From NCBI RefSeq assembly GCF_022458985.1, contig NC_061771.1, forward strand, positions 29,810,322-29,874,321: a DNA stretch of 64,000 nt, written 5' to 3'. The stretch is from Mugil cephalus. Lineage: Eukaryota > Chordata > Actinopteri > Mugiliformes > Mugilidae. Below the pieces are notes generated by a model. It saw only the letters and a list, made by a program, of their open reading frames with translations, did no database searches and was not told the origin of the DNA. This document shows positions 3,346 to 62,275 of this stretch, piece after piece. Position 1 is the first letter of the stretch, and every line of letters starts with the position of its first letter. The translations under genes were made by a program, and so were the position numbers.

Positions 3346-4010
3346 TTGTTGCGTTTTCTTCTTTGCATGAAAAGTGTTATGTAAATAAAGTGTGATTTGA
3401 TTTGATTGGAGCAATGTTTCCTGCGTTTTACTGGTCCTTTGTTGGCTTGGGGTGAACTTTTGGCTGGAAATGTAGCTCGTCACCACGTGGTTTGTGTGTA
3501 CTGTGATGTCCTGTCCTCCTGTGATGTGAGCTGTCCCTTTTAACGCTATAGCACATAGTGCTCTGGTGCAGCTAGGACGGCCTTTCTCCACTGGAGACCT
3601 AGTCTTGTTTGTGTTCCTTCCACAGACAAAACAAGCTCTACAAGGTCAGCTGGACAGACCGACGGCCGCCACAGATGGTGGTAGCCAGTGGTTGACCTCC
3701 CACCCACATTCTCATCTTATATTCCTCCTGGCATGAGGGTAGTAGTACTTCAAATACCACAACAGGACTAAGGCCTCATGAGGTATTAATGGGTCGGCCT
3801 ATGTCCACAGGAGCAAGTCCACCTTTGACCCCACACAAAGTGGCTCTGATGTGGACCGATGATTATATGACTGAGTGTGTGAAATGTTTGACTGAGGTCT
3901 CACCAAAGTTTCCTTCACAGGTTTCTGACAGGCTCCCGAAACCCTCTGAGGAACCAGTTCATCCATTTCAGTGTGGTGATCTTGTCCCTGAGATGATTTC
4001 ACCGTTACAG
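3346..4010. other. Intergenic stretch, no gene seen
   Basis: I see no convincing coding exon or RNA gene. The first 60 bp (AATAAAGTGTGATTTGATTTG) look like the polyadenylated tail of an unidentified repeat. Short open frames here lack family motifs. Confidence 0.5.
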
Positions 4011-4453
4011 GTATAGTGATGGGTAGATGAGGCCTCGTGAAGCGTTGCGGCACATTACTCAAACTGTGTTTGATACTGTATCGGTGCTGTGTCACTGTGT
4101 TGCTCAATACTGACACCTGCTGGATTTTAATCATCATTACAGAGACTCAACTGGTTTACTGATTCAATGACCGAGTATATACAATAACATTGTTTAAGTT
4201 ACTGTATTATATTTTGTGTACTATATTATTTTATATCTTAATCTAAGCTTAAAATATTTATGATATTTTTTAAATGTACAGGGAATATTGCTTTATCTGG
4301 CAGCCAGGTATCTGGACCTCAATAATCGAATCGGCTGTGGCGTTGGTTATTTAAAAAACAACAAATTGGCATTTTGGTTGAAGTCATCAATTACAAATCA
4401 GTACAAGATTTGTAAGAATGTAAATGCACAAATAAGCTGATGAAACTGAATAA
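4011..4453. repeat. Shared edge block of the duplication units (copy A)
   Basis: This block is repeated at about 33004-33450 and 54711-55158 with high identity: GATGAGGCCTCGTGAAGCG, then a tract with GACACCTGCTGGATTTTAA and a run ending GCTGATGAAACTGAATA. It marks the left part of duplication units A, C and D. The first part resembles the end of a non-autonomous hAT-like repeat, which is inference. Confidence 0.7.
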
Positions 4454-6170
4454 TTAGGAGGGCGAAGAGCGGTACATAAAATAGGAGCAGGGGAATAAGA
4501 TAACAAAAAGAATAACAATTGCAAAAGTGAGTAAAAAAACTGCATATTATCTACAATGGCAGGTCTGCTGCCAGTAACAGGAGAGAGATGGATTGTGGAA
4601 AATAATATCAAGACCAATATGTAAAAAAAACTGTAAAACAGCAGATAAAGTATGACAAATAAATGAATAAAGTGAGACGTGGTTAAAAAAATTAAAATTA
4701 AAAGTGACATTGAAGTTAAAGTGACATAGTAGTATTGCACAAGAGGTCATGTGATGTTGCACTTGAGTGTAACACAGGAGGCTTAAGTTATTGTAACCGT
4801 CGTACAGTTCTTAGAGTTCAGGAGGAGAATAACATTGGGAACAAAGGTTGCTCTCCTCCTCTGGGTCTTACAGGCCGGACATCGGAACCTGCGACCAGAC
4901 GGCAGCAGCTCAAATGCCGGAAACAGAGCATGGGTTGAGTCCTTGAGAATTCGACGAGCCAGGCCACTCGCCTGCTGCTCGTACACAGTGCTCAGGTGGT
5001 GAGCAGGGAGTCCAATAGTCTTACAACACACCTTGACAATGTTATGCAGGCGGTTCCTATCCTGAACAGTTACGGAGTGATACCAGCAGCACATGGAGAA
5101 AGTTAAAACACTTTCAATGAATGTGTAATAGAATGTCAGCAAGATGTTCTTACTGACAGAAAAAGAGCTCAGTTTCCTTCGTAGGTTCATCCTCTGGTGG
5201 CACTTCCTCAGGATCCCTTCGGTGTTGGAAGAGAACCTCAGTTGGCAGTGCAGGATGGTTCCCAGGTATCTGTATTCCCCAACTGTCTCGACCGGAGAAC
5301 CGTGGACCATAGTGGTGACAGCTGCCGCCAGTTCCCTTTGGCTGCTGGAGAAGGTCACCACCATCTCCCTCGTTTTGCTGACATTCAGCTCCAGGCAGGA
5401 AGAGTCACACCACTCTGTGAACTGCTGCAGAGCGGGTCCATGGTGGAGGGAGGGACCGGACAGGAGGGACAGGAGAACTGTGTCGTCAGCAAACTTCACC
5501 AGGTCACAGTTGGGGTGCGTTGATCTGCACTTCGTCGGTGTACAGGATGAAGAGCAGCGGAGAAAGCACACAGCCTTGTGGGGAGCCAGTGGAGGTGGTC
5601 AGGAGATCAGACAGGTTATTGTTAATACGGACTCCCTGGGTTCGGTTGGTGAGAAAGTCCAGGATCCAGAGGATGAGCTGGCTGCTCAAGTTGAAATACG
5701 CTGGAGTCTCTCTGCCAGGATGTGCGGTTGCAGGGTGTTGAAGGCCGAGGAGAAGTCAGCAAACAGGAGTCTGGTGGAGGTGTTGGGAAGCTCCAGGTGT
5801 CTGTGGATGGTGTCGATGATGAAGGCTTTGGCATCGTCCACACCTTTGCGGCTTTGATGTGCAAATCGGAGCGGGTCGAGTTGTGAGTTGGTCAGAATGA
5901 GAATGTGTTGCCTGAATAGCCTCTCCATAGCCTTCATCACCTGGGAGCAGAGGGCCACTGGGCGCAGGTCGTTCAGGGCCCTGGGGGGGCTTCTCTTGGG
6001 AATGGGGACGATGGTTGAGTGTTTCCAACATTTGAGGACAGTTTCTGTGCTGATGGAGGTCTGGAACAGTTTCTGGAAGACACTCACTAACTGGTCCGCA
6101 CAGTGACTGAGGACCCGACCACTGATGTTATCGGCTCCAGGTGCATTGTTAGCTTTGGATCTCTGACCAA
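4454..6170 (-). mobile_element. 5'-truncated L2/Rex-like non-LTR retrotransposon
   Basis: Reading the minus strand, reverse-transcriptase segments appear in order: APGADNISGRVLSHCADQLV near the 5' end, IVPIPKRSPPRALNDLRPVA, LLFADFSSAFNTLQPHILAE, then GSPQGCVLSPLLFILYTDE and VKFADDTVLLSLL with the catalytic YxDD-type box (FADD). The C-terminal part includes ELNVSKTREMVVTF and EYRYLGTIL and ends CPACKTQRRRATFVPNV, after which about 330 bp of AT-rich 3' UTR follow. Frame changes separate the segments, and the endonuclease domain is missing, as in typical 5'-truncated insertions. A degraded second copy sits at 33481-35260. Clade within the L2/CR1/Rex group is uncertain. Confidence 0.8.
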
Positions 6171-6640
6171 AGTGTAAAGTTATAAGTTGTTCACACGGAG
6201 GCGAGACACGAGGAGGAGGAGGAGGAGAAGGGTTGAGTTGTTCATTGATGTGAAATAAACTGATTAATGCACTTTTTCAACATGTGGATTCAAGACACAA
6301 GATTCAAGTCCGAGTGATGTCACAGTCATTGGTGTTAAAGTTCAAGTCAAGATGTAAGTCTTTTTATGTGTTGTCGAGTCTAATGTCATCAAATTAACAA
6401 GTGTTAGTTGCTATGGAGACGATGGATTTGAATGACGTCACGATGGCGTAACGTCACGGCAGGAGCCGAGGTTTTAGATAGAGGCTCTCTGGTGATGGCC
6501 TTCAACATCCTCTCTCATCCAGAGGACAAAGGGCCCCAATGACCACGAGGAAGGAGGGAAGCCCGGATCTCTGCAGCCGCACCGTTGACATGGAAGCTCA
6601 AGGCTCGTCTCAACACCGCTGACCAGATGCCTCGGTTCAG
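6171..6640. other. Upstream segment of unit A
   Basis: This segment is repeated in unit C (about 35261-35760) and unit D (about 55376-55805). It contains a GGA-rich run, then a GC-richer block around GCTCTCTGGTGATGGCCTTC that stays similar between copies. No long reading frame is conserved between copies. Copy A stops matching after GATGCCTCGG near 6635, and about 380 bp present in unit D are missing. Confidence 0.5.
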
Positions 6641-9955: not shown

Positions 9956-11641
9956 ATGGAGCAGAAAGGAGTTCAGCTGGACAGAGAAACCTTCTCTTGT
10001 TCCATCTGTCTGGATCCACTGAAGGATCCTGTACTACTTCCCTGTGGACAACAGCTACTGCATGAACTGTATTAAAAGCCACTGGGATGAAGAAGACCAA
10101 AAGGGGAATCTACAGCTGCCCTCAGTGCAGAAACTTTAAATACCGAGGCCTGTCCTGGAGAAAAACACCATTTTAGCAGAGTTAGTGGAGCAGCTGAAGA
10201 AGACTGACTCCAACTGCTCCACTGATCACTGCTATGCTGGACCTGAAGATGTGGCCTGTGACTTCTGCACTGGGAGGAAGCTGAAAGCCTTCAAGTCCTG
10301 TCTGGTCTTTTGATTTCTTACTGTGAGAAACACCTTCCCAACCTCACTATGATTTAGCTCCATTAAAGAGACACAAGCTGGTGAGAGCCCTCCAAGAAGC
10401 TCCGGAAACATCTGCCCCTCGTCATGATGAAGGGGATGAAGAATGTTTCTGTCGTACCTGATCACAGATATCTGTTAATCTCTGCTCTGTGGATGAACTT
10501 TTAAAGGCCACGACACAGTCTCAAGCTGCAGCAGAAGGACTGAGAAGCAGAAGAGGTGGAGGTGATGCTAGAAAACTTCCAGCAGAACGATCCAGGAGAG
10601 ACGCAAAGACGTGGAGCTGCTTAAAACAGGAGCTGAAGGCCATGGCTCACTCTGCTGAATAAAACAGTGGAGGACAGTCGGGAGATCTTCACTGAGATGA
10701 TCCGTCTCCTCCAGAAAAGAAGCTCTGATGTGGAGCAGCTGGTCAGATCCAGCAGGAAAACTGAAGAGAGTCGAGTCAAAGATGTTGAGGAGAAGCGGGA
10801 CCCAGCAGATCACTGAGCTGGAAGGAAGGCCCGAGCTGAAGCAGCTCTTAAACACAAAGGATCAAAACCAGTTTCTACACAACTACCCCTCACTGCCACC
10901 ACCCAGTGAGTCAAACACACTCATCCAGCATCCAAGATTCGTCCTCTGAGGTACTTTGATGGCGTGAAAGCAGCTGTGACAGAGACCAGAGAGAAACTAC
11001 AGGACATTCTGAGAGAGACAGGACAAACAACTCAGTGACAGTGACTGAAGTGGATGTTTTACTGCCACAACCAGACCCAAAGACCAAGATGAATTCTGGA
11101 AATATTCATGTGAAATCACACTGGATCCAAACACAGCAAACACACGTCTGTTATTATCTGAGGGGAACAGAAAAGTAACATTAATGGATCAACATCAGTC
11201 TTATTCTCATCATCCAGACAGATTCACTGGTTGTTGTCATTATCAGGTCCTGAGTAGAGAGAGTCTGACTGGACGTTGTTACTGGGAGGTGGAGTGGAGA
11301 GGAGGAGTAGTTAATGTAGCAGTCGCATACAAGAATATCAGCAGAGCAGGGAGGTCAGATGAATGTGCATTTGGATTCAATGACAAATCTTGGTCATTAT
11401 TTTGTGAAACAAACAGATACACATTTCACCACAACAAAGTCCAAACTCCTGTCTCAGGTCCTGGTTCCTCCAGAGTAGGAGTGTACCTGGATCACAGAGC
11501 AGGTCTTCTGTCTTTCTACAGCGTCTCTGAAACCATGACTCTCCTCCACAGAGTCCAGACCACATTCACTCAAGCCTCTCTATGCTGGACTCTGGTTATT
11601 TTATGATGGAAAACACTGCTGAGTTGATTAAAGTGAAATAG
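9956..11641 (+). pseudogene. TRIM copy A (finTRIM/TRIM16-like), multiply frameshifted in this assembly
   Basis: The segment is homologous to the intact TRIM at 57151-58830 from ATG to stop. RING, B-box, coiled-coil and PRY/SPRY parts can all be followed, but single-base gains and losses break the frame repeatedly in the first two thirds. Examples are around 10033-10055 in the RING and 10130-10145 after it. From 11184 a 140-codon stretch is open and encodes most of the SPRY: RESLTGRCYWEVEWRGG, AVAYKNISRAGR and SRVGVYLDHRAGLLSFYS. A shift near 11570 replaces the normal C-terminal residues ending ELIKVK. Many changes are homopolymer-type indels, as in the neighbouring histone genes, so this may be an intact gene with sequencing errors. 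If functional, it would be a cytosolic E3 ligase-like immune protein, by family knowledge. Confidence 0.8.
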
Positions 11642-12989: not shown

Positions 12990-14870
12990 GATGATGTTTT
13001 CAATCGACTGTTAGCATTAATCTGATAGCATTCGTGAATAAGCATCTGTGTTAGCATTCGTGTATTAGTGTCCGTGTTAGCATCCATTGTGAACATAATC
13101 CGTGTTACATCCGCCTGTTAGCATCTGTATTGGAATCCGACTGTTACACCGTGTTAGCATTCGTCTGTGAACAGTCTGTGTTAGTATTCGTCTTTCAGCA
13201 TTGCACTGTTAGCCTTCATCTGATAGCATTCGTGTATTAGCGTCCGTGTTAGCATCCGTATTAGCATTGATTTGTGATAGCATTCGTATTAGCATGGACC
13301 CATGTTAGCATCCGTATTTGCATTCATCTGTTAGCATCCGTATTAGCATTCGTCTGTTAGCAACGGGGTTGGAATCCCCTTTTAGCATCCCGTCTTAGCA
13401 TTCAACTGATTTGTATGTTCATTAAATTCATCTGTTAGCATTCGTCTGTTAGCCTTCATCTGATAGCATTCGTTTATTAGCGCCCATGTTAGCATCCGTT
13501 ATTAGCTTCGATCCGTGTTAGCATCCATATTGGCAGTCATCTGTTAGCATCCGAAATTAGCATTCTCTGTTAGCATCTGGGTTGGAATCCGCCTGTTAGC
13601 TTCTGTGTTAGCATTCAACGATTTGTATGTTCATTAATTCATCTGTTAGCATTTGTTTAGCATTCTTGTGTTAGCAACCGTGTTAGCATTTGTCTGTTAG
13701 CATTCATCTGTTAGCATCCGTGATAGCAACTGATCTGTTAGCATTCATCTCTGAGCATTAGTCTGTTAGCATCCGTCTTACCCATTCAACTGATTTGTAT
13801 GTTCAGTCATTCATGTGTTAGCATTGGTCTTTTAGCCTTCATCTGATAGCATTCTTCTGTTAGCATCCGTTTTGGCATTTGTCTGTTAGCATTCGACTGT
13901 TAGCTTTAATCTGATAGCATTCGGAATAAGCATCTGCGTTAGCATTCGTGTATTAGTGTCCGTGTTAGCATCCATATTAACATAAAATCCGTTTATCACC
14001 GCCTGGTTAGCATTCGTCTGTAAAACAGTCTGTGATAGTATTCGCCCTTTCAGCATTGCAGTGTTACCCCTTCATATGATAGCAATCGTGTATTAGCGTC
14101 CGTATTAGAAATTGATTTGTGTAAAGCATCCGTATGAGCATGGATCCATGTTAGCATTGGCCCTATTGGCATTCATCTGTTAGCACCTGGGTTGGAATCC
14201 GCCTGTTAGTATACGTTTTAGCATTCAACTGATTTGTATGTTCATTAATTCATGTGTTAGCATTGATAGCATTCTTGTGTTAGCAACCGTTTTAGCATTG
14301 TCTGTTAGCATTCATACTGATTTGTATGTTAGAAATCCGTTGTAAGCATGCATCTGTTACCTTTGCGCGTTAGCTTTTAACTGATTTATATTCGATACTC
14401 TGTTAGCATCTGTCTGTAGCATCCGTATGTCAGCATTCTTGTGTTAGCATTCATATGATTTAATGATAGCATCAGTGTGGTTAGCATTCTTCCGTTTAAA
14501 ATTAGTCTGTTAACATTCATCTGATTTATTGTTAGCATCTGTTTAGCATCTGTATGTTAGAAATTCATCTGATTTGTATGTTGGCATGTTGCAACCGTGT
14601 TAGCATCCGTCTGTTAGCATCCGTGTTAGCATGGGTATGTTAGCATTCATCTCATTTTAACGTTAGTTTCTTTTGGTTAGCATTAAATCTTTTTAGCATT
14701 CGTATGAGTTGAAATGCTAGCATGCGTCTGTCAGCATCCGGGTTAGCATCTGCCTCTTAGCACCCCATGTTAGCATCCGTAGGTTAACCTTCATCGTTAC
14801 ATTCATCTGTTAGCATCCATATGCTAGCGTCCTTCTGCTAGCATTAATCTATTTTGTATGTTAACACTAA
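12990..14870. repeat. TTAGCAT minisatellite array A
   Basis: About 1.9 kb of diverged short repeats are built on TTAGCATCCGTA (12 nt) and TTAGCATTCGTCTG (14 nt). Longer modules are marked by CAACTGATTTGTATGTTCAT. The array contains more irregular indels than array D. The open frames across it are by-products of the repeat. Confidence 0.9.
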
Positions 14871-20710: not shown

Positions 20711-20862
20711 AGCAGCGACATTCAGCCCTGTACACAGGAGAGCCGGGGCTGGGCTGAGTCTCTACGGTTCTCATGGTGTGTTTAAGTGCCGCCTCCTGCT
20801 CCGAGTTTTTCATCACTGGCAGTCTGACTCTGGTTGACTAGCGACAACGACAGGAAGGAAAA

Positions 20863-21530
20863 ATGGCAGAAGTAGCTCCAGCTCCGGCTCCCGCTCCGGG
20901 CCAAAACCGCCAAAGAAGAAGGCGTCCAAACCGAAGAAAGCCGGTCCCCACCGTCAGCGAGCTGATCGTTAAATCTGTGGCCGCTTCCAAGGAGCGGAGC
21001 GGGGGTCTCTGCAGACCGCCCTCAAGAAGGCTCTGGCTGCCGGCGGCTACGACGTGGACAAGAACAAGGCCCGCGTCAAGACCGCCATCAAGACCTGGTG
21101 ACCAAGGGGAAATCTGGTTCAGATCAAAGGGGAACCGGGCCTCCGGATCCTTCAAGATCAACAAGAAGGCTGAAAGCAAGGTCAAGAAACCCGTCAAGAA
21201 AGTTGCCACTAAAGCCAAGAAGCCCGCAGCAGCCGCTAAAAAGTCTCCTAAGAAAGTCAAGAAGCCCGCAGCAGCCGCTAAAAAGTCTCCTAAGAAAGTC
21301 AAGAAGCCCGCAGCAGCTGCTAAGAAATCTCCCAAGAAAGTCAAGAAACCAGCAGCGGTAAAGAAAGCAGCCAAGAGCCCCAAGAAGGCCACAAAGAAGT
21401 CCTAAGAAGGCTGCCAAGAGCCCCCAAAAAGGTGGTCAAGAAGGCCCCTGCAGCCAAGAAAGCCCCCGCTAAGAAGGTAGCCAAGCCTAAAGTCAAGAAG
21501 GCAGCACCCAAGAAAAAAGTGAGCTCCTGA
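20863..21530 (+). CDS. Linker histone H1, frameshifted in this assembly
   Basis: Linker histone that binds nucleosome entry/exit DNA in the nucleus. The start MAEVAPAPAPAP is typical of fish H1. The winged-helix domain is visible in pieces: PTVSELIVKSVAASKERSG in one frame, then DVDKNKARVKTAIKT in another, then GSFKINKKAES. The tail is Lys/Ala/Pro-rich, with three near-identical repeats of about 16 codons (AKKPAAAAKKSPKKV) and a terminal KVSS before TGA at 21528-21530. At least five single-base gains or losses interrupt the frame. Several lie in G, C or A runs and two pairs nearly compensate, which points to sequence error rather than decay. It is intronless, and the histone 3' stem-loop follows 20 nt after the stop, so it is a replication-dependent gene. 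Confidence 0.85.
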
Positions 21531-27561: not shown

Positions 27562-29256
27562 ATGGAGCAGAAAGGAGTTCAGCTGGACAGAGAAACCTTC
27601 TCTTGTTCCATCTGTCTGGATCTACTGAAGGATCCTGTGGCTACTTCCGGGGGACACAGCTACTGCATGAACTGTATTAAAAAACCACTGGGATGAAGAA
27701 GACCAGAAAAGGGAATCTACAGCTGCCCCCAGTGCAGGAAGACTTTCATACCGAGGCCTGTCCTGGAGAAAACACCAGTTAGCAGAGTTAGTGGAGCAGC
27801 TGAAGAAGACTGGACTCCAAGCTGCTCCACTGATCACTGGCTATGCTGGACCAGAAGATGTTGCCTGTGATTTTTGCACTGGGAGGGAAACTGAAAGCCT
27901 TCAAGTCCTGTCTGGTCTGTTTGGGTTTTTTACTGTGAGAAACACCTCCAACCTCACTAGATGTAGCTCATTAAAGAAACACAAGCTGGTGGAGCCCCCC
28001 CAAGAAGCTCCAGGGAAAAATCTTTCTTTTCGTCATGATGAGGTGATGAAGATTTTCTGTCGTACTGATCAGCAGAGTATCTGTTTCTCTGCACACTGAT
28101 GAACATAAAGGCCACGACAAAAGTCTCAGCTGCAGCAGAAAGGACTGAGAAGCAGAAGGAGGTGGAGGTGAGCTAGAAAACATCGAGCAACGATCCAGAG
28201 AGACCAAACGACGTGGAGCTGCTTAGACAGGAGCTGAAGGCCATGGCTCACTCTGCTGATAAAACAGTGGAGGACAGTCGGGAGATCTTCACTGAGATGA
28301 TCCGTCTCCTCCAGAAAAGAAGCTCTGATGTGGAGCAGCTGGTCAGATCCCAGCAGGAAACTGAAGAGAGTGGAGTCAGAGATGTTGAGGAGAAGCTGGA
28401 GCAGCAGATCACTGAGCTGGAGAGGAAAGGCTCCGAGCTGAAGCAGCTCTTAAACACAGAGGATCACAACCAGTTTCTACACAACTACCCCTCACTGCCA
28501 CCACCCAGTGAGTCTACACACTCATCCAGCATCAAGATTCGTCCTCTGAGGAACTTTGATGGCGTGAAAGCAGCTGTGACAGAGACCAGAGAGAAACTAC
28601 AGGACATTCTGAGAGAGACATGGACAAACATCTCAGTGACAGTGACTGAAGTGGATGTTTTACTGCCACAACCAGAGCCAAAGACCAGAGATGAATTCTG
28701 GAAATATTCATGTGAAATCACACTGGATCCAAACACAGCAAACACAAATCTGTTATTATCTGAGGGGAACAGAAAAGTAACAAGAATGAATCAACCTCAG
28801 TCTTATTCTGATCATCCAGACAGATTCACTGATTATTGGCAGGTCCTGAGTAGAGAGAGTCTGACTGGACGTTGTTACTGGGAGGTGGAGTGGAGAGGAG
28901 GAGGAGTTGGTGTAGCAGTCGCATACAAGAATATCAGCAGAGCAGGGTGGTCAGATGAATGTGGATTTGGATTCAATGACAAATCTTGGTCATTACGTTG
29001 TGACACAAACAGTTACACATTTTTCCACAACAAAGTCCAAACTCCCGTCTCAGGTCCTGGTTCCTCCAGAGTAGGAGTGTACCTGGATCACAGAGCAGGT
29101 CTTCTGTCTTTCTACAGCGTCTCTGAAACCATGACTCTCCTCCACAGAGTCCAGACCACATTCACTCAGCCTCTCTATGCTGGACTTCGATTCTGGTTAT
29201 TTGATGTTGGATTCTATGATGTTGGAGACACTGCTGAGTTGATTAAAGTGAAATAG
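27562..29256 (+). pseudogene. TRIM copy B (finTRIM/TRIM16-like), 5' half frameshifted, 3' half open
   Basis: From 28213 to the stop at 29256 the frame is open for 347 codons: coiled coil (IFTEMIRLLQKRSSDVEQLV), linker, and a complete PRY/SPRY ending TAELIKVK. The 5' part has several indels. The RING frame stops at codon 45, after an extra base in an A-run. The RING Cys that is TSCGHSYC in copy D is Gly here (TSGGHSYC). B-box segments recur in shifted frames. The SPRY is as conserved as that of the intact copy, and the damage consists mostly of homopolymer length changes. I therefore consider sequencing error likely for part of the damage; a truncated TRIM lacking RING function is the alternative. 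Confidence 0.82.
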
Positions 29257-33003: not shown

Positions 33004-33480
33004 ATGAGGCCTCGTGAAGCGTTGTGGCACATTACTCAAACTGTGTTTGATAGTGTATCGGTGCTGTGTCACTGTGTTGCTCAATACTGACACCTGCTGG
33101 ATTTTAATCATCATTACAGAGACTCAACTGGTTTACTGATTCCATGACCAAGTATATACAATTTTTTAAGTTATTGTATTTTATTTCGTGTACTATATTA
33201 TTTTATATCTTAATCTAAGCTTAAAATGTTGATGACATTTTTTTTTTTTTTTTTTTAAATGTGGGGGAAATTTTTGGCCTTTCTCTGAAAACCCGGGGAT
33301 CTGGCCTCAAAATTGAATCGACTTTTGGGCTTTGGTTTTTTTAAAAACAAAAAATTTTTGCTTTTTGGTTTTAGTCATCAATTAAAAATTTCAGTACAAG
33401 TTTTTGAAAAGACGTAAATGCACAAATAAGTGTTGAAACTGAATAATTAGGGGCGAAAGGGGGGTAATAAAATAAGAGAG
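33004..33480. repeat. Shared edge block of the duplication units (copy C)
   Basis: Nearly identical to 4027-4453 and 54734-55158 up to about 33233. It is then recognisable but heavily altered where the noisy sequence begins. Confidence 0.75.
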
Positions 33481-37203: not shown

Positions 37204-38928
37204 ATGGAGCAAAAAAAGGAGTTCAGTTGGACAGGGGAAAACCCTTTCTTGTTCCTCTTTTTGGGATCTACTGAAGGATCCTGTGATTTTTCCCCTGTAG
37301 ACCAATACTGCATGAACTGTTTTTAAAAAAGCCAGGGGGTGGAAGAAGCCCAAAAGGGGAAAATCTACAGTCCCCCTCAGTGCGGGGAAGGGACTTTCAT
37401 ACCGGGGCCCTTCCTGGAAAAAAAACAATGTTAGCAGATTTTGTGGAGCAGCTAAAGAAAAAGGGGCTCCTTAAGCTCCCTCCAGTGATCATGAAATGCG
37501 GGGCCCTGAAGATGGGGGCCTGTGATTCTGCACTGGGGGGTTGCTAAAAGCCTTCAATTTCCTGTAAAAAAACTGTCTAGCCTCTTACTGTAGGAAAACC
37601 CCTCCAACCTCACTATGTGCGGCCCCATTAAAGAAACACAAGGGGGGGAGCCCCCCAAACCCTCCGGGAGAACATCTGCTCTCGTCATGATGAGGTGATG
37701 AAGATTTTCGGGTGGTTTTGATCAGCGAGTATTTTTTTCCCTTGAAAAAGGGGATGAACAAAAAGGGCCCACGACACGGGTTCCCGTTTTGCACGGGAAA
37801 AGGATGGAACCCAGAAGGGGGTTTGGAGGGGGATGCTAGAAAACATCGAGCAGACGATCCAGGGGGAGACGAAAAGGGGGGGGTGGAGTGCTTAGACGGA
37901 GCTGAAGGCCTTGGCTCCCTTTTGCTGTTTAAAAGTGGGGACGTCGGGGTCTTCCTGGGGATGATCCTTTCTCCTCCAGAAAAGAAGCTCTGATGTGGGC
38001 GGCTGGTCAAAACCCCACGGGGAAACTGAAGGAGCCCGAGGTCAAAGATGTTGAGGAGAAGCTGGGGGCAGCGATCACTAAAGCTGGAGGGGAAAAAGGC
38101 CCGGTTAAAAAGCAGCTTTTAAAACACAGAGGATCAAAACATTTTTACACAAAACCCTACCCCTCCCCCAACCCCCAGTGGTTTCACACTATAAGCTTCA
38201 AGATTGGCCTTTCTGGGGAATTTTTGGTTGGCGTGAAAGCGCTGTGCCCAGAGGACCAGAGAGAAACTACGGGGACATTCGGGAGAGAGCCCAGGGGACA
38301 AACTTTCCTCAGTGACAGTGACTGAAGGGGATGTTTTATGCACAACCAGAGCCAAAGACCGGGAGATAAATTTTGGGAAATATTATGTGAAATCACCTGG
38401 ATCCAAACACAGAAAAACACAGGGTTGTTTTTTATATGAGGGGAAAAAGAAAATTTCAAAAAAGAAAAAAACCTCAGCCCTTTTTTTCCATCATCCGGGC
38501 TTTTTCCCTGTTTTTTTGCCCGGGTCCTGAGTAGGAGAGTCTGACTGGAGGTTGTTACTGGGAGGTGGAGTGGAGGGGAGGAGGGGGTAGTTTTTTTGCA
38601 GTGCATAAAAGGGAATTTCAGCAGAGCAGGGAGGTCACATAAAATTTTGCATTTGGATTCAAGGGAAAAATTTGGCCCTTACGTTTTTTTACGCAACCAA
38701 ATATAAAATTTTACCACAACAAAGTCAAACCCCCTTTCTAGGTTGGTTCCCAGGGGTAGGAGTTTTCCCGGGATACAGAGCAGGTTTTCTGTCTTTTACA
38801 CCCGTCCTAAAAAAACCTTTGACTCCCCTTTCCAAAAGGTCCACCCCCAATTAAATCGCCCCCTCTTTTGTTGGGAATCTTGTTCCCTTTAATGTTGGAG
38901 ACACTGCTGGTTGATTAAAGTAAAATAG
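37204..38928 (+). pseudogene. TRIM copy C, unreadable frame in noisy sequence
   Basis: Alignment by eye to the intact copy runs from ATG (37204) to TAG (38926-38928). RING, B-box, coiled-coil and SPRY stretches are recognisable at DNA level, for example CTGGAGGTTGTTACTGGGAG in the SPRY, but no frame stays open beyond about 110 codons. The noise is at the local background rate, so this may be a normal gene in reality. Confidence 0.75.
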
Positions 38929-45844: not shown

Positions 45845-47530
45845 ATGGAGCCGAAAGGAGTTAGCTGGACAGAGAAAACCTTTTTTTTTTCCATCTGTCT
45901 GGTTTCCCCTGAAGGATCCTGGTTTATTCACTTTTGGAACAATTTTTTTCATGAAAATGTATAAAAGCCACTGGGTTTTAAAAAGACCAGAAGGGAATCT
46001 ACAGCTGCCCCCAGTGCAGGAAGACTTTCATACCGAGGCCCGTCCCGGAGAAAAAAAACCCTGTTAGCAGGTTAGTGGGAGCAGCTGAAGAAGACTGGGG
46101 CTCCAAGCTGCTCCAGTGATCACTGCTTTGCTGGACCTGAAGATTTTTGGGCCCGTGAAATTTTTGCAGGGGGGAAGTGAAAGCCTTCAAGTCCCGGGTT
46201 GGGGGCTGTTTGGTTTCTTACTGTGAGAAAAACCCCCCAACCTCATGTGATGTAGCTCCCTTAAGAAACACAAGTGGTGGGGGCCCTCCCAAAAAGCTTC
46301 CCGGGAACATCGCTTCGTATGGGTAAGTTTATGGAGATTTTTTTTTCGTATGATCAGCGGGAAAAATTTTTATCTTGCTCTGTTGGATGAAAATTAAAGG
46401 GCCCCGACACAGTCTCAGCTGCAGCGAAAGGAATGAGAAGCAAAAAGGAGGGGAGGGGATGTAGAAAAACCCCCCAGCAGACGATTCCCGGAGAGACAAA
46501 AACGTGGAGTGCTTAGACGGGCTGAAGGCCCTGGTCACTCTGCTGATAAAAAGTGGAGGGGCAGTCGGGAGATTTCAATGAGATGATCCCTCTCCTCCAG
46601 AAAGAAGCTTGGGTGTGGAGCAGGGGTGGGTCGATCCCCGCGGAAAATGTAAAAAGAGTCGAGTCCAAAAATGTTTAGGGAAGTGGGCTGCAGATCACTG
46701 AGGGGGAGAGGAAAGGTCTGAGCTGAAGCAGCTTTTAAAAAACAGGGATCCAACCAGTTTCTACACCTACCCCTCACTGCCCCCCCCCGTGAGTCTACAC
46801 ACTCATCCGCATTTAAGATTCGTCCCTTTTGAGGAAAATTTGATGGGTGGGGAAAACAGCTGTTTACAGAGGGCCAGAGAGAAACTACAGGGGCTTTTTG
46901 AGAGGGCCCTGGACAAACATTCAGTGACAGTGGCTTTAAGTGGATGTTTTACTGCCACAACCAGAGCCAAAGACCAGAGTTTTTCAGGAAAAATTTCATT
47001 TTGAAATCCACTGGATCCAAAAAAAAAGCAAAAACGGCTGTTATTTTTTGGGGGGGACAGAAAAAAAACGTAATGAATCAACATCAGCTTATTCGATCAT
47101 CCAGCAGATTTACTGATTTTTGGCGGGGCTGAGTAGAGAGAGTCTTTATGGACGTTGTTTTTGGGATGGGGAGTGGAGAGGAAGAAGAGGAGTTTGGGGT
47201 TTTAGCGTCGAACCCCGGGAAAATCGAAAAGGAGGGAAAGAATGGGTTTTTTTGGATTAAAGACAAAAACTTTTGGGAATTTTTGTTTTCACAAAAAAAG
47301 TTTTGAATTTTACCCCCAACAAAGTCCAAAATCCCCTCTCAGGGGCCGGGGTTCCCCCAGAGTAGGAGTGTACCTGGATACAGAGCAGGTCTTTTTTTTC
47401 TTTCTAAGCGTTTTGAAACCATGACCTCCTCCAAAAGGTCCAGGGCCACATTCACTCCGTCTCTATGCTGGATTCGATTCTGGTTTCCTGATTTTGGGGG
47501 CCACTGCTGAAATTGATGAAAGTGAAATAG
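45845..47530 (+). pseudogene. TRIM copy C2, unreadable frame in noisy sequence
   Basis: A fifth TRIM copy, from ATG at 45845 to TAG at 47528-47530. DNA segments of the RING (CCCCAGTGCAGGAAGACTTT), coiled coil and SPRY (AGAGTAGGAGTGTACCTGG) match copy D. It differs from copy C at many positions and has a GGAAGAAGAGGAG tract in the SPRY variable region, closer to D than to B, so it is a distinct paralogue rather than a re-read of C. Confidence 0.72.
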
Positions 47531-52129: not shown

Positions 52130-52629
52130 NNNNNNNNNNNNNNNNNNNNNNNNNNNNNNNNNNNNNNNNNNNNNNNNNNNNNNNNNNNNNNNNNNNNNNN
52201 NNNNNNNNNNNNNNNNNNNNNNNNNNNNNNNNNNNNNNNNNNNNNNNNNNNNNNNNNNNNNNNNNNNNNNNNNNNNNNNNNNNNNNNNNNNNNNNNNNNN
52301 NNNNNNNNNNNNNNNNNNNNNNNNNNNNNNNNNNNNNNNNNNNNNNNNNNNNNNNNNNNNNNNNNNNNNNNNNNNNNNNNNNNNNNNNNNNNNNNNNNNN
52401 NNNNNNNNNNNNNNNNNNNNNNNNNNNNNNNNNNNNNNNNNNNNNNNNNNNNNNNNNNNNNNNNNNNNNNNNNNNNNNNNNNNNNNNNNNNNNNNNNNNN
52501 NNNNNNNNNNNNNNNNNNNNNNNNNNNNNNNNNNNNNNNNNNNNNNNNNNNNNNNNNNNNNNNNNNNNNNNNNNNNNNNNNNNNNNNNNNNNNNNNNNNN
52601 NNNNNNNNNNNNNNNNNNNNNNNNNNNNN
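52130..52629. other. Assembly gap, 500 N
   Basis: Exactly 500 N, a conventional placeholder for unknown length. The frames that run through it are artefacts. Confidence 0.99.
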
Positions 52630-53934: not shown

Positions 53935-54690
53935 CACACACAACTCGTTTGACTCATTTGTGAGCACAGGAAACGCAGGAAGTAAATGTTAAATGGAGAA
54001 AGTATAGGATCAAATTAGCTCAACATTTCTTCCTGCTCATTTTCAAACATGTTCAGTAAAAATTGTTCAAGTTTTATTTTCTTTGTTGTGTTTTTTTGGC
54101 ATTACATGTTTGAAATAAAGCTTTCATTCATTCATTCGTGCAGCGTTTTCATGGATTTCCACTAAGATGCTTTAACGGATGTACGGCACTTACTGAACCT
54201 CATGTGTTGTAGTTACTGTAGTTGTTTCAGCCGTGTGTGTTCAAGCTGCACTCATCAATTTAAATAGAAATAAAGTGTAGAAGTCATGCGTGTCCTGTTA
54301 TATCTCTTTCTCATGCATTTAAATACTTACATGTAGAAGGAGGCTGATCCTGAACAGCAGGAACTCTGCAGACGTCCTGTCTATTTAAACGCAGGATAAA
54401 GAGCAGAAAGTGAGAAAGCAGCAAGACAACAGATATTAGTTGTAGAATCCCACACAGGCTTTACACTTTGTTTTAGTCCATCCTCTCAAGTTAATTTGCA
54501 CCTTTTTCCAGATCAGACACAAACTGTTCTCCTTTGGCTTAGCCTCAAACATGGTCTGGTATTTTCTAGATAAAAGCTTGATCTGAAATAAACCTAAAAT
54601 AAAAAAGAAACTTGCAGTTTCAGAAGATATGTGTCGTAGAGCGAAATATAAAGTTGAAAACCTTTCAGCAGCCTACCGGAATATAAAATG
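53935..54690. other. 3' flank of the SLC1A-like exons
   Basis: Contains the polyadenylation signal at 54114-54119. The rest is non-coding as far as I can see. Confidence 0.5.
54114..54119 (+). promoter_or_regulatory. Polyadenylation signal AATAAA of the SLC1A-like gene
   Basis: AATAAA lies 180 nt after the TAA stop, followed by a T/C-containing tract with repeated ATTC. Consistent with a once functional 3' end. Confidence 0.6.
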
Positions 54691-55160
54691 TCCCTGAGAT
54701 GATTTCACCGTTACAGGTATAGTGATGGGTAGATGAGGCCTCGTGAAGCGCTGCGGCACGTTACTCAAACTGTGTTTGATACTGTATCGGTGCTGTGTCA
54801 CTGTGTTGCTCAATACTGACACCTGCTGGATTTTAATCATCATTACAGAGACTCAACTGGTTTACTGATTCCATGACCGAGTATATACAATAACATTGTT
54901 TAAGTTATTGTATTATATTTCGTGTACTATATTATTTTATATCTTAATCTAAGCTTAAAATATCTATGATATTTTTTAAATGTACAGGGAATATTGCTTT
55001 CTCTGCCAGCCAGGTATCTGGACCTCAATAATTGAATCGGCTGTGGCGTTGGTTATTTAAAAAACAACAAATTGGCATTTTGGTTTTAGTCATCAATTAC
55101 AAATCAGTACAAGATTTGTAAGAACGTAAATGCACAAATAAGCTGATGAAACTGAATAAC
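54691..55160. repeat. Shared edge block of the duplication units (copy D)
   Basis: Matches 3984-4453 from CCTGAGATGATTTCACCG to GATGAAACTGAATA, then diverges: the LINE found in A and C is absent and about 215 bp of other sequence follow. It therefore marks the left edge of unit D. Confidence 0.78.
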
Positions 55161-57150: not shown

Positions 57151-58830
57151 ATGGAGCAGAAAGGAGTTCAGCTGGACAGAGAAACCTTCTCTTGTTCCAT
57201 CTGTCTGGATCTACTGAAGGATCCTGTGACTACTTCCTGTGGACACAGCTACTGCATGAACTGTATTAAAAGCCACTGGGATGAAGAAGACCAGAAGGGA
57301 ATCTACAGCTGCCCTCAGTGCAGGAAGACTTTCATACCAAGGCCTGTCCTGGAGAAAAACACCATGTTAGCAGAGTTAGTGGAGCAGCTGAAGAAGACTG
57401 GACTCCAAGCTGCTCCAGCTGATCACTGCTATGCTGGACCTGAAGATGTGGCCTGTGATGTCTGCACTGGGAGGAAGCTGAAAGCCTTCAAGTCCTGTCT
57501 GGTCTGTTTGGTTTCTTACTGTGAGAAACACCTCCAACCTCACTATGATTTAGCTCCATTAAAGAGACACAAGCTGGTGGAGCCCTCCAAGAAGCTCCAG
57601 GAGAACATCTGCTCTCGTCATGATGAGGTGATGAAGATGTTCTGTCGTACTGATCAGCAGAGTATCTGTTATCTCTGCTCTGTGGATGAACATAAAGGCC
57701 ACGACACAGTCTCAGCTGCAGCAGAAAGGACTGAGAAGCAGAAGGAGGTGGAGGTGATGCTAGAAAACATCGAGCAGACGATCCAGGAGAGACGCAAAGA
57801 CGTGGAGCTGCTTAGACAGGAGCTGAAGGCCATGGCTCACTCTGCTGATAAAACAGTGGAGGACAGTCGGGAGATCTTCACTGAGATGATCCGTCTCCTC
57901 CAGAAAAGAAGCTCTGATGTGGAGCAGCTGCTCAGATCCCAGCAGGAAACTGAAGAGAGTCGAGTCAAAGATGTTGAGGAGAAGCTGGAGCAGCAGATCA
58001 CTGAGCTGGAGAGGAAAGGCTCCGAGCTGAAGCAGCTCTTAAACACAGAGGATCACAACCAGTTTCTACACAACTACCCCTCACTGCCACCACCCAGTGA
58101 GTCTACACACTCATCCAGCATCAAGATTCGTCCTCTGAGGAACTTTGATGGCGTGAAAGCAGCTGTGACAGAGACCAGAGAGAAACTACAGGACATTCTG
58201 AGAGAGACATGGACAAACATCTCAGTGACAGTGACTGAAGTGGATGTTTTACTGCCACAACCAGAGCCAAAGACCAGAGATGAATTCTGGAAATATTCAT
58301 GTGAAATCACACTGGATCCAAACACAGCACACACACGTCTGTTATTATCTGAGGGGAACAGAAAAGTAACATTTATGAATCAACCTCAGTCTTATTCTCA
58401 TCATCCAGACAGATTCACTGGTTTCAATTGGCAGGTCCTGAGTAGAGAGAGTCTGACTGGACGTTGTTACTGGGAGGTGGAGAGGAGAGGAAGAGGAGTT
58501 GATGTAGCAGTCGCATACAAGAATATCAGCAGAGCAGGGGGGTCAGATGAATGTGTATTTGGATTCAATGACAAATCTTGGTCATTACGTTGTTTAACAA
58601 ACAGTTACACATTTTACCACAACAACGTCGAAACTCCCGTCTCAGGTCCTGGTTCCTCCAGAGTAGGAGTGTACCTGGATCACAGAGCAGGTCTTCTGTC
58701 TTTCTACAGCGTCTCTGAAACCATGACTCTCCTCCACAGAGTCCAGACCACATTCACTCAGCCTCTCTATGCTGGACTAAGGTTATTTTATGATTATGGA
58801 GCCACTGCTGAGTTGATTAAAGTGAAATAG
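57151..58830 (+). CDS. Intact finTRIM/TRIM16-like protein (TRIM D), 559 aa
   Basis: Predicted cytosolic RING E3 ubiquitin ligase of the expanded fish TRIM group; roles in antiviral signalling are known for finTRIM relatives, not shown here. RING at 15-57 has all eight ligands (C15, C18, C30, H32, C35, C38, C54, C57). A B-box1-like region spans 102-131 (CDVCTG to HLQPH). B-box2 spans 154-184 (C154, H157, C165, D168, C173, C176, H181, H184). A coiled coil covers about 190-310 (VEVMLENIEQTIQERRKDVE, EKLEQQITELERKGSELKQL). PRY/SPRY covers about 370-559, with LDPNTA, LLLSEGNRKV, GRCYWEVE and RVGVYLDHRAGLLSFY. It is encoded in a single coding exon. The ATG is in the same context as in copies A-C. 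It is the only copy of five without a frameshift and the template for reading the others. Confidence 0.95.
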   Translation: MEQKGVQLDRETFSCSICLDLLKDPVTTSCGHSYCMNCIKSHWDEEDQKGIYSCPQCRKTFIPRPVLEKNTMLAELVEQLKKTGLQAAPADHCYAGPEDVACDVCTGRKLKAFKSCLVCLVSYCEKHLQPHYDLAPLKRHKLVEPSKKLQENICSRHDEVMKMFCRTDQQSICYLCSVDEHKGHDTVSAAAERTEKQKEVEVMLENIEQTIQERRKDVELLRQELKAMAHSADKTVEDSREIFTEMIRLLQKRSSDVEQLLRSQQETEESRVKDVEEKLEQQITELERKGSELKQLLNTEDHNQFLHNYPSLPPPSESTHSSSIKIRPLRNFDGVKAAVTETREKLQDILRETWTNISVTVTEVDVLLPQPEPKTRDEFWKYSCEITLDPNTAHTRLLLSEGNRKVTFMNQPQSYSHHPDRFTGFNWQVLSRESLTGRCYWEVERRGRGVDVAVAYKNISRAGGSDECVFGFNDKSWSLRCLTNSYTFYHNNVETPVSGPGSSRVGVYLDHRAGLLSFYSVSETMTLLHRVQTTFTQPLYAGLRLFYDYGATAELIKVK

Positions 58831-60169: not shown

Positions 60170-62275
60170 CACACATTCGTGTATTAGTGTCCGTGTTAGC
60201 ATCCGCCTGTTAGCATCTGTCTTGGAATCCGACTGTTAGCATCCGTGTTAGCATTCGTCTGTGAACAGTCTGTATTAGTATTCGTCTTTCAGCATTGCAC
60301 TGTTAGCCTTCATCTGATAGCATTCGTGTATTAACGTCCGTGTTAGCATCCGTATTAGCATTTATTTGTTATAGCATCTGTATTAGCATGGACCCATGTT
60401 CGCATCTGTATTTGCATTCATCTGTTAGCATCCGTATTAGCATTCAACTGGTATGTTCATTAATTCATCTGTTAGCATATGTTTGTTAGCCTTCATCTGA
60501 TAGCATTCGTGTATTAGCGCCCATGCTAGCATCCGTATTAGCATGGATCCATGTTAGCATCCATATTGGCAGTCATCTGTTAGCATCCGTATTAGCATTC
60601 TTCTGTTAGCATCTGGGTTGGAATCCGCCTGTTAGCTTCTGTGTTAGCATTCAACTGATTTGTATGTTTATTAATTCATCTGTTAGCATTGATAGCATTC
60701 TTGTGTTAGCAACCGTGTTAGCAACTGATCAGTTAGCATTCATCTCTGAGCATTAGTCTGTTAGCATCCGTCTTAGCATTCAACTGATTTGTATGTTCAG
60801 TCATTCATCTGTTAGCATTGGTCTGTTAGCCTTCATCTGATAGCATTCTTCTGTTAGCATCCGTGTTGGCCTTTTTTCTGTTAGCATTCGACTGTTAGCT
60901 TTAATCTGATAGCATTCGTGAATAAGCATCTGTGTTAGCATTCGTGTATTACTGTCCGTGTTAGCATCCATATTAACATACTTCCGTGTTAGCATCCACC
61001 TGTTAGCCTTCGTCTGTGAACAGTCTGTGTTAGTATTCGTCTGTCAGCATTGCACTGTTAGCCTTCATATGATAGCATTCGTGTATTAGCGTCCGTGTTA
61101 GCGTCCGTATTAGCATTCGTCTGTTAGCATCCGTATTAGCATTCGTCTGTTAGCAATCATGTTAGCATTCAACTGATTTGTATGTTCATTAATTCATCTG
61201 TTAGCATTCGTTTGTTAGCATTCTTCTGATAGCATTCGTGTATTATTGCCCATGTTAGCATCTGTATTAGCATGGATCCGTTTTAGCATTCATCTGTTAG
61301 CATCCTTATCAGCATTCGTCCGTTTGCACCTGGGTTGGAATCCACCTGTTAGCATACGTGTTAGCATTCAGCTGATTTGTATGTTCATTAATTCATCTGT
61401 TAGCATTCGTCTGTTAGCCTTCATCTGATAGCATTCGTGTATTAGCGCCCATGTTAGCATCCGTATTAGCATCGATTCGTGTTAGCATCCATATTGGCAG
61501 TCATCTGTTAGCATCCGTATTAGCATTCGTCTGTTAGCATCTGGGTTGGAATCCGCCTGTTAGCTTCTGTGTTAGCATTCAACTGATTTGTATGTTCATT
61601 AATTCATCTGTTAACATTGATAGCATTCTTGTGTTAGCAACCGTGTTAGCAGTTGTCTGTTAGCATTCATCTCTGAGCATTAGTCTGTTAGCATCCGTCT
61701 TAGCATTCAACTGATTTGTATGTTAAGTCATTCATCTGATAGCATTCTTCTGTTAGCATCCGTGTTGGCATTCGTCTGTTAGCATTCGACTGTTAGCTTT
61801 AATTTGATAGCATTCGTGAATAAGCATCTGTGTTAGCATTCGTGTATTAGTGTCCGTGTTAGCATCCATATTAACATACATCCGTGTTAGCATCCGTCTG
61901 TTAGCATCTGGATTGGAATGCGCCTGTTAGCATCCGTGTTAGCATTCAACTGATTTGTATGTTTATTAATTCATCTGTTAGCATCCGTCTGTTAGTCTTC
62001 ATCTGATAGAATTCTTCTGTTAGCATCCGTGTTAGCATTTTGTCTGTGAACAGTCTGTGTTAGTATTCGTCTTTCAGCATTGCACTGTTAGCCTTCATAT
62101 GATAGCATTCGTGTATTAGCGTCCGTGTTAGCGTCCGTATTAGCATTGACTTGTGTAAGCATCTGTATTAGCATGGATCCATGTTAGCATCCATATTAGC
62201 ATTCGTCTGTTAGCATCCGTGTTAGCATTCAACTGATTTGTATGTTCATTAATTCATCTGTTAGCATTATGGATT
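60170..62275. repeat. TTAGCAT minisatellite array D
   Basis: 2.1 kb of clean sequence made of TTAGCATCCGTA (12 nt) and TTAGCATTCGTCTG (14 nt) variants. A larger module is marked by AACTGATTTGTATGTTCATT, found at about 60652, 60781, 61170, 61369, 61580, 61708, 61948 and 62230, with repeated spacings near 128 and near 200-211 bp. The array ends 40 bp before the stop codon of the CD22-like gene on the other strand. Confidence 0.95.

Follow-up and report, generated by a model that had tools for sequence, protein, structure and literature searches.

The locus analysed here, a 64-kb stretch of a Mugil cephalus assembly (contig C2:29810322-29874321; genome of 634.8 Mb in 24 contigs) that we refer to as the window, contains five copies of a TRIM gene, and it raises the question of why neighbouring copies that are near-identical over much of their length encode different residues at so many codons of the PRY-SPRY (B30.2) domain. 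The gene is best represented by copy D (Table 1), with Pfam matches to zf-C3HC4_4 (4.7e-14), B-box (1.9e-10), TRIM_CC (2e-37), PRY (6e-17), and SPRY (9.5e-8), and thus with the class-IV TRIM architecture of RING, B-box, coiled coil, and PRY-SPRY, in that order. The best solved-structure match of the copy D PRY-SPRY is the PRY-SPRY of TRIM16 (7qs3; E 1.4e-34), and the nearest TRIM chains with solved structures are those of TRIM16, TRIM14, and TRIM25. The copies are recently duplicated single-exon class-IV TRIM genes, and very probably ubiquitin ligases of innate immunity.

Table 1. TRIM copies in the window, domains of copy D, and variable codons of its PRY-SPRY; positions are those of the window and identities are to copy D.
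Feature	Position	Strand	Description
Copy A	9956..11641	+	94.1% to D; indel-rich
Copy B	27562..29256	+	94.3% to D; many indels in 5' half, open frame in 3' half from 28177
Third copy	37204..38928	+	76.5% to D, 96 gap openings; inside noisy stretch
Fourth copy	45845..47530	+	79.8% to D, 102 gap openings; inside noisy stretch
Copy D	57151..58830	+	Intact single-exon TRIM gene, 559 aa; open frame, Pfam domains
RING of copy D	57193..57321	+	Residues 15-57
B-box of copy D	57598..57714	+	Residues 150-188; Pfam
Coiled coil of copy D	57781..58203	+	Residues 211-351; B and D nearly invariant
PRY plus SPRY of copy D	58306..58773	+	Residues 386-541; Pfam
Codon 396	58336..58338	+	In all three cluster site lists; aligns with TRIM21 W299
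Codon 408	58372..58374	+	L/R/F in A/B/D; in all three cluster site lists
Codons 424-427	58420..58431	+	Variable length; GCCHY / DYW / GFNW in A / B / D
Codon 451	58501..58503	+	N/G/D in A/B/D; aligns with TRIM21 D355
Codons 463-469	58537..58557	+	Hypervariable; in-frame deletions in other copies
Codons 480 and 482	58588..58596	+	Align with TRIM21 W381 and W383
Codons 487-494	58609..58632	+	Hypervariable; family alignment, site test
Codons 544-551	58780..58803	+	Hypervariable C-terminal stretch; B and D differ in length

Elsewhere in the window, long degenerate minisatellite arrays (13041-13923 and 60174-62229) lie downstream of copies A and D, and a repeat upstream of copy D (54689-55159) is 97.5% identical, with no gaps, to 3983-4453; its 84.9% identity and 11 gaps to 33004-33446 fit the noisy stretch that is described below. 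An open frame on the forward strand (20842-21402), lysine-rich and with 42-bp tandem repeats, resembles histone H1 by eye and gave no match in a Pfam search at 0.001, and an open frame on the reverse strand (5686-6276) matches reverse transcriptase (PF00078, 5e-7) and is probably a LINE-type remnant.

Copies A, B, and D were compared over the 159 PRY-SPRY codons common to all three, up to D 58758; codons past this point were omitted because copy A is frameshifted there, its PRY-SPRY being open, and used, from 11088 until a 1-bp insertion close to the end. Across this block 22 codons vary, 21 of them changing the residue and a single one silent-only. The sequence-only reading of this DNA had claimed that several codons encode a different residue in each copy; this is so at seven of the 21, and its examples are all present, namely R/W/G after SRAG (D 58540), A/G/V after DEC (D 58555), E/D/L after the SPRY Cys (D 58594), and H/F/Y before HN (D 58615). 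It had also described the coiled coil of copies B and D as nearly invariant, which agrees with the three substitutions and no indels counted over the 480 nt of coiled coil plus linker (57799-58278), versus 24 substitutions with indels of 3, 6, and 12 over the 549 nt of PRY-SPRY, and 18 substitutions with no indels over the 1130 nt of three 3' flank pieces.

In 2000 simple no-selection simulations run at the observed total divergence of A, B, and D, the number of three-state codons averaged 1.2 and never exceeded 6 (observed, 7), and the number of silent-only codons averaged 6.6 (observed, 1; P of one or fewer = 0.0115). Residue-changing codons hold 33 of the 34 nucleotide changes. Third-position changes number only 6 of the 34, five of them within residue-changing codons, and frame-blind mutation was rejected as the cause. 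A three-sequence codon model gave an omega of approximately 10 (P = 0.001 versus omega = 1), and the comparison of M1a with M2a gave P = 1.7e-8. Because three sequences have a single unrooted tree shape, recombination cannot mislead this model through topology, although it could still do so through uneven divergence. For copies D and B alone, the excess of residue-changing over silent differences is not significant over the whole PRY-SPRY (P = 0.34), mostly because silent changes fall in the C-terminal tail. Residue-changing differences between these two copies (approximately 24/438 sites) exceed those of the flank (18/1130; P 6.9e-5), and silent differences are also above the flank, more weakly (approximately 6/126; P 0.027).

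Sequencing error is real in the window. Homopolymer runs of at least 4 make up 23-29% of bases at 32-52 kb versus 5-14% in the other 4-kb bins, roughly a threefold share, and a 500-N gap (52130-52629) immediately follows the homopolymer-rich stretch (32000-52129), which is probably unpolished gap filling in which gene calls are unsafe; the third and fourth copies, which lie in it, were excluded from codon-level work. Copy A and the 5' half of copy B also carry many 1-bp indels, including in noncoding flank. These features would favour an explanation in which sequencing or assembly error creates the differences between copies, but errors would not spare silent positions, indels between B and D are absent from 57799-58278 and are limited in PRY-SPRY to lengths of 3, 6, and 12, and intact copies elsewhere in the genome, whose reading frame is preserved, vary at these very sites. 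Error does not explain the A/B/D block, and since positive selection is repeated in those intact copies, we regard read error as a negligible candidate for the cause.

A DNA search of the genome returned at least 40 matches of 86-100% identity on contigs C1, C2, C5, and C7 (344 candidates), which makes this a large, clustered multigene family. Among 30 fetched copies, 22 have an intact frame, including copy D and also L034, which was counted as intact although its frame ends a few codons early; the other eight (L013, L016-L020, L031, and L032) were left out. A search of viral contigs for relatives gave three stretches that matched a pattern, none of them a relative. The loss of frame in eight copies, some of it perhaps through assembly error, could be taken to mean that constraint is relaxed and that PRY-SPRY is drifting in decaying genes. 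This is very unlikely, given that 22 of the 30 copies are intact, that all eight ligands of the C3HC4 RING are invariant in every one of the 22, that silent changes lag behind residue changes in A, B, and D, and that residues 501-540 are nearly fixed although they adjoin variable sites. In the alignment of the intact copies, 18 of the 20 columns with at least six residues lie in PRY-SPRY, and in-frame length changes between residues 13 and 555 are confined to this domain, apart from gaps at 325 and 330 in a single copy.

Codon site models were fitted to six copies on contig C2, 11 on C1, and 12 on C7 (L040, of 13, left out), using our own implementation rather than PAML or HyPhy, with naive site posteriors and branch lengths scaled from M0; codons gapped in more than half of the copies or absent in copy D were left out. 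For PRY-SPRY, the M1a-M2a statistic (2dlnL) was 73.5 (C2), 157.2 (C1), and 88.6 (C7), and the selected class comprised 13%, 14%, and 19% of codons, respectively. Recombination inflates such models; with a separate tree for each of four segments, the values were 75.3, 115.7, and 92.4. The RING-B-box-coiled-coil region (RBCC) carries a signal too, whether real or recombination-borne, which is smaller than that of PRY-SPRY despite twice as many codons: 34.0 (C2), 47.8 (C1), and 78.0 (C7) unsegmented. Segment trees gave 18.0 versus 33.1 over the same codons (14-371) in C2, 20.6 versus 23.4 over the same codons in C1 (26.4 by summation when codons 1-13 are included), and 52.3 over all codons in C7; thus a clear lowering of the RBCC signal is limited to C2 and C7, and the signal is still significant in all three clusters. 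In some C2 RBCC segments omega ran away with no significant test, and the site lists of those segments are meaningless. We rejected the reading that the RBCC signal, unlike that of PRY-SPRY, fades under segment trees, as the C7 RBCC value stands at 52.3 and the C1 fall comes mostly from omitting codons 1-13.

When sites found in one cluster were tested in the other, pN exceeded pS at those codons in both C2 (0.388 versus 0.135) and C1 (0.443 versus 0.287). Whole-domain dN/dS of PRY-SPRY is modest (1.74 in C2, 0.85 in C1, and 0.97 across all 22 copies) because silent diversity is raised there as well. The codon site models nevertheless returned a selected codon class, rather than the dN/dS near or below 1 that the sequence-only reading had named as refuting. 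The codon pattern that it described in the window is real and well supported, and its suggestion of positive selection in B30.2 is supported by site models in three clusters of the same genome.

A second intronless TRIM family (L049-L058) is located on contig C2 at 30.68-31.34 Mb, with open frames of 544-566 aa in the 10 copies fetched. It has a PRY-SPRY M2a signal of 66.5, with codon 396 in the site list, and an RBCC signal of 32.9; L056 and L057 are identical over the compared PRY-SPRY. This family may be more like the btr/trim35 group than the copies in the window are.

Silent diversity is raised in several of the stretches where residues vary, most clearly in C1, where PRY-SPRY pS is 12.0% versus 4.0% in coiled coil plus linker. 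PRY-SPRY in C2 has a pN of 6.6% and a pS of 3.9%, versus flank differences of 0.60% (3') and 1.09% (5'); flank pairs with <200 aligned bases were left out, which kept 13 of 55 contig-C1 pairs per flank. The proposal that flanking codons are almost without silent changes is thus accurate for A, B, and D, and fails across the family, where silent diversity rises near variable codons. A recombination test over the whole CDS was significant in both clusters tested (C1 and C2; P <=0.002), and over PRY-SPRY alone in C1 (P 0.001) and not in C2 (P 0.095). L022 and L030 have an identical C-terminal tail (codons 538-556) and differ elsewhere, and L011 and L015 contain tracts identical to contig-C1 copies and unlike the majority of their own cluster. 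Blocks of linked changes at codons 26-33 and 101-140 (parts of the RING and B-box), common to some of L009-L015 and contig-C1 copies, look like conversion tracts.

The rise in silent diversity, the whole-CDS recombination, and the shared tracts, together with the positive RBCC site tests, would be in keeping with an origin mainly by gene conversion, whereby old divergent PRY-SPRY segments were kept or shuffled and only the remainder of the gene underwent recent homogenisation, with little or no need for selection on single codons. We consider such an origin unlikely, if worth weighing: imported old segments should have added more silent changes than the one silent-only codon set against 21 residue-changing codons in A, B, and D, and of the 48 PRY-SPRY codons that vary among the C2 copies, only five are silent-only. 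Against it stand also the excess of pN at cross-validated codons, the persistence of the PRY-SPRY M2a result under segment trees in three clusters, and the non-significant test within the C2 PRY-SPRY. Given raised silent diversity and detectable recombination, exchange or retained old variation therefore acts alongside selection, and the variation in these stretches seems to be older, or to have been exchanged, whereas the backbone around it is kept uniform by recent duplication or conversion.

A more far-reaching possibility is a germline repertoire, in which a constant effector frame bears a hypervariable pocket, and conversion or mutation directed at PRY-SPRY actively creates the diversity of that pocket, instead of selection simply preserving it; the elevated silent diversity near variable codons would then be the trace of this process. 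We think this quite improbable. With regard to frame-blind mutation, rejected above, transitions and transversions number 18/42 in the C2 PRY-SPRY, compared with 24/16 for RBCC (P 0.004) and 16/15 for the flanks (P 0.067), and the C1 counts (73/58) show no shortage of transitions. Hypermutation of the deaminase type is not suggested, as transitions do not dominate the C2 PRY-SPRY.

Selected sites recur between clusters, with 11 common to the C1 list (17 sites) and the C2 list (15 sites; P 8e-11). The putative ligand pocket was located by alignment to human TRIM21, because a single-sequence structure prediction of the copy D PRY-SPRY was unusable (mean pLDDT 38.6). The key contacts of TRIM21 with antibody Fc are D355, W381, W383, D452, F450, and W299 (PMC6722209, in excerpt). 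F450 and D452 are aligned to a gap next to the hypervariable tail (codons 544-551), and the comparison covers the other four, which align without a gap: W299, D355, W381, and W383 correspond to codons 396, 451, 480, and 482, and all four codons are in the set shared by C1 and C2 (P 6.7e-6). The residues diversified in these two clusters would thus occupy positions where PRY-SPRY domains bind ligands, as judged by alignment. The C7 list (16 sites) includes three of the 11 shared sites (396, 408, and 469; P 0.056) and has six in common with C1 (P 0.001), while 10 of its sites are in neither the C1 nor the C2 list, and 396 is the only one of the four TRIM21-aligned codons in it. The variable sites had been placed in surface loops; 'pocket' is the better description for the two clusters whose recurring sites include all four TRIM21-contact positions, and applies less well to the third, with one of the four. 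The alignment does not imply that these proteins bind antibody, because the residues at the contact positions vary between copies.

Our preferred explanation, which we hold to be probable, is that duplication and exchange keep the frame of these genes uniform while positive selection diversifies the PRY-SPRY pocket, with the copies probably binding different targets. In the cluster at the window, duplication and exchange between copies would keep differences in the coiled coil and flanks to a minimum, and positive selection would diversify the residues around the ligand pocket, such that each copy probably binds its own target, whether a protein of a pathogen or an infection-related protein of the host, using a common effector frame; pathogens would then be the driver of selection. 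TRIM5alpha and TRIM21 cluster on their ligand and mark it with ubiquitin, and each copy would most likely be a RING ligase that acts in the same manner. The locus is an unusually clean case, in that near-identical neighbouring copies have their differences concentrated around a known binding pocket, and copy-specific recognition is therefore testable with natural variants.

Earlier publications describe B30.2 positive selection in the finTRIM, btr, trim35, and NLR-B30.2 genes of fish, and given these precedents the copies described here are a new example of a known phenomenon. A literature search on positively selected B30.2 binding pockets, TRIM21, and teleosts matched only PMC2657112 and PMC3137616. 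In the finTRIM (ftr) genes of teleosts, for which the sequence-only reading had correctly noted B30.2 positive selection, 15.6% of sites were assigned to the selected class under M2a (PMC2657112, in excerpt); the three clusters here gave 13%, 14%, and 19%. Further likenesses described in the excerpted source are a class-IV RBCC-B30.2 architecture, a large clustered family, recombination, and selected sites in regions that match TRIM21 loops (PMC2657112). The genes here share B30.2 positive selection with finTRIM, subject to the recombination and raised silent diversity reported above, and their single-exon structure fits the medaka form (47 of 55 finTRIM genes single-exon) and not the six-exon form of zebrafish ftr genes (PMC2657112, in excerpt). 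Unlike zebrafish ftr, the copies of the window cluster are only approximately 1% diverged in their flanks. We infer that the copies are likely to be members of finTRIM, a putative assignment.

Among other families, the btr (bloodthirsty/trim39) and trim35/hltr genes also combine B30.2 positive selection, at loop sites, with recombination, breakpoints being described for btr (PMC3137616, in excerpt). TRIM21 is comparable in the four recurring sites that align with its Fc contacts, and differs in that the residues at those sites vary between the copies here. TRIM16 supplies the best solved match to the domain; it is described as being without a RING (PMC3357404, in excerpt), whereas the copies here possess a RING with eight ligands, and orthology to TRIM16 was rejected accordingly. 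The zebrafish NLR-B30.2 genes offer a parallel in process, in that B30.2 is positively selected and gene conversion affects it differently from the effector part (PMC4852459, in excerpt), although there the frame is that of an NLR rather than RING, B-box, and coiled coil. The copies of this locus would thus be TRIM genes in which selection and between-copy exchange act together, as proposed for zebrafish NLR-B30.2.
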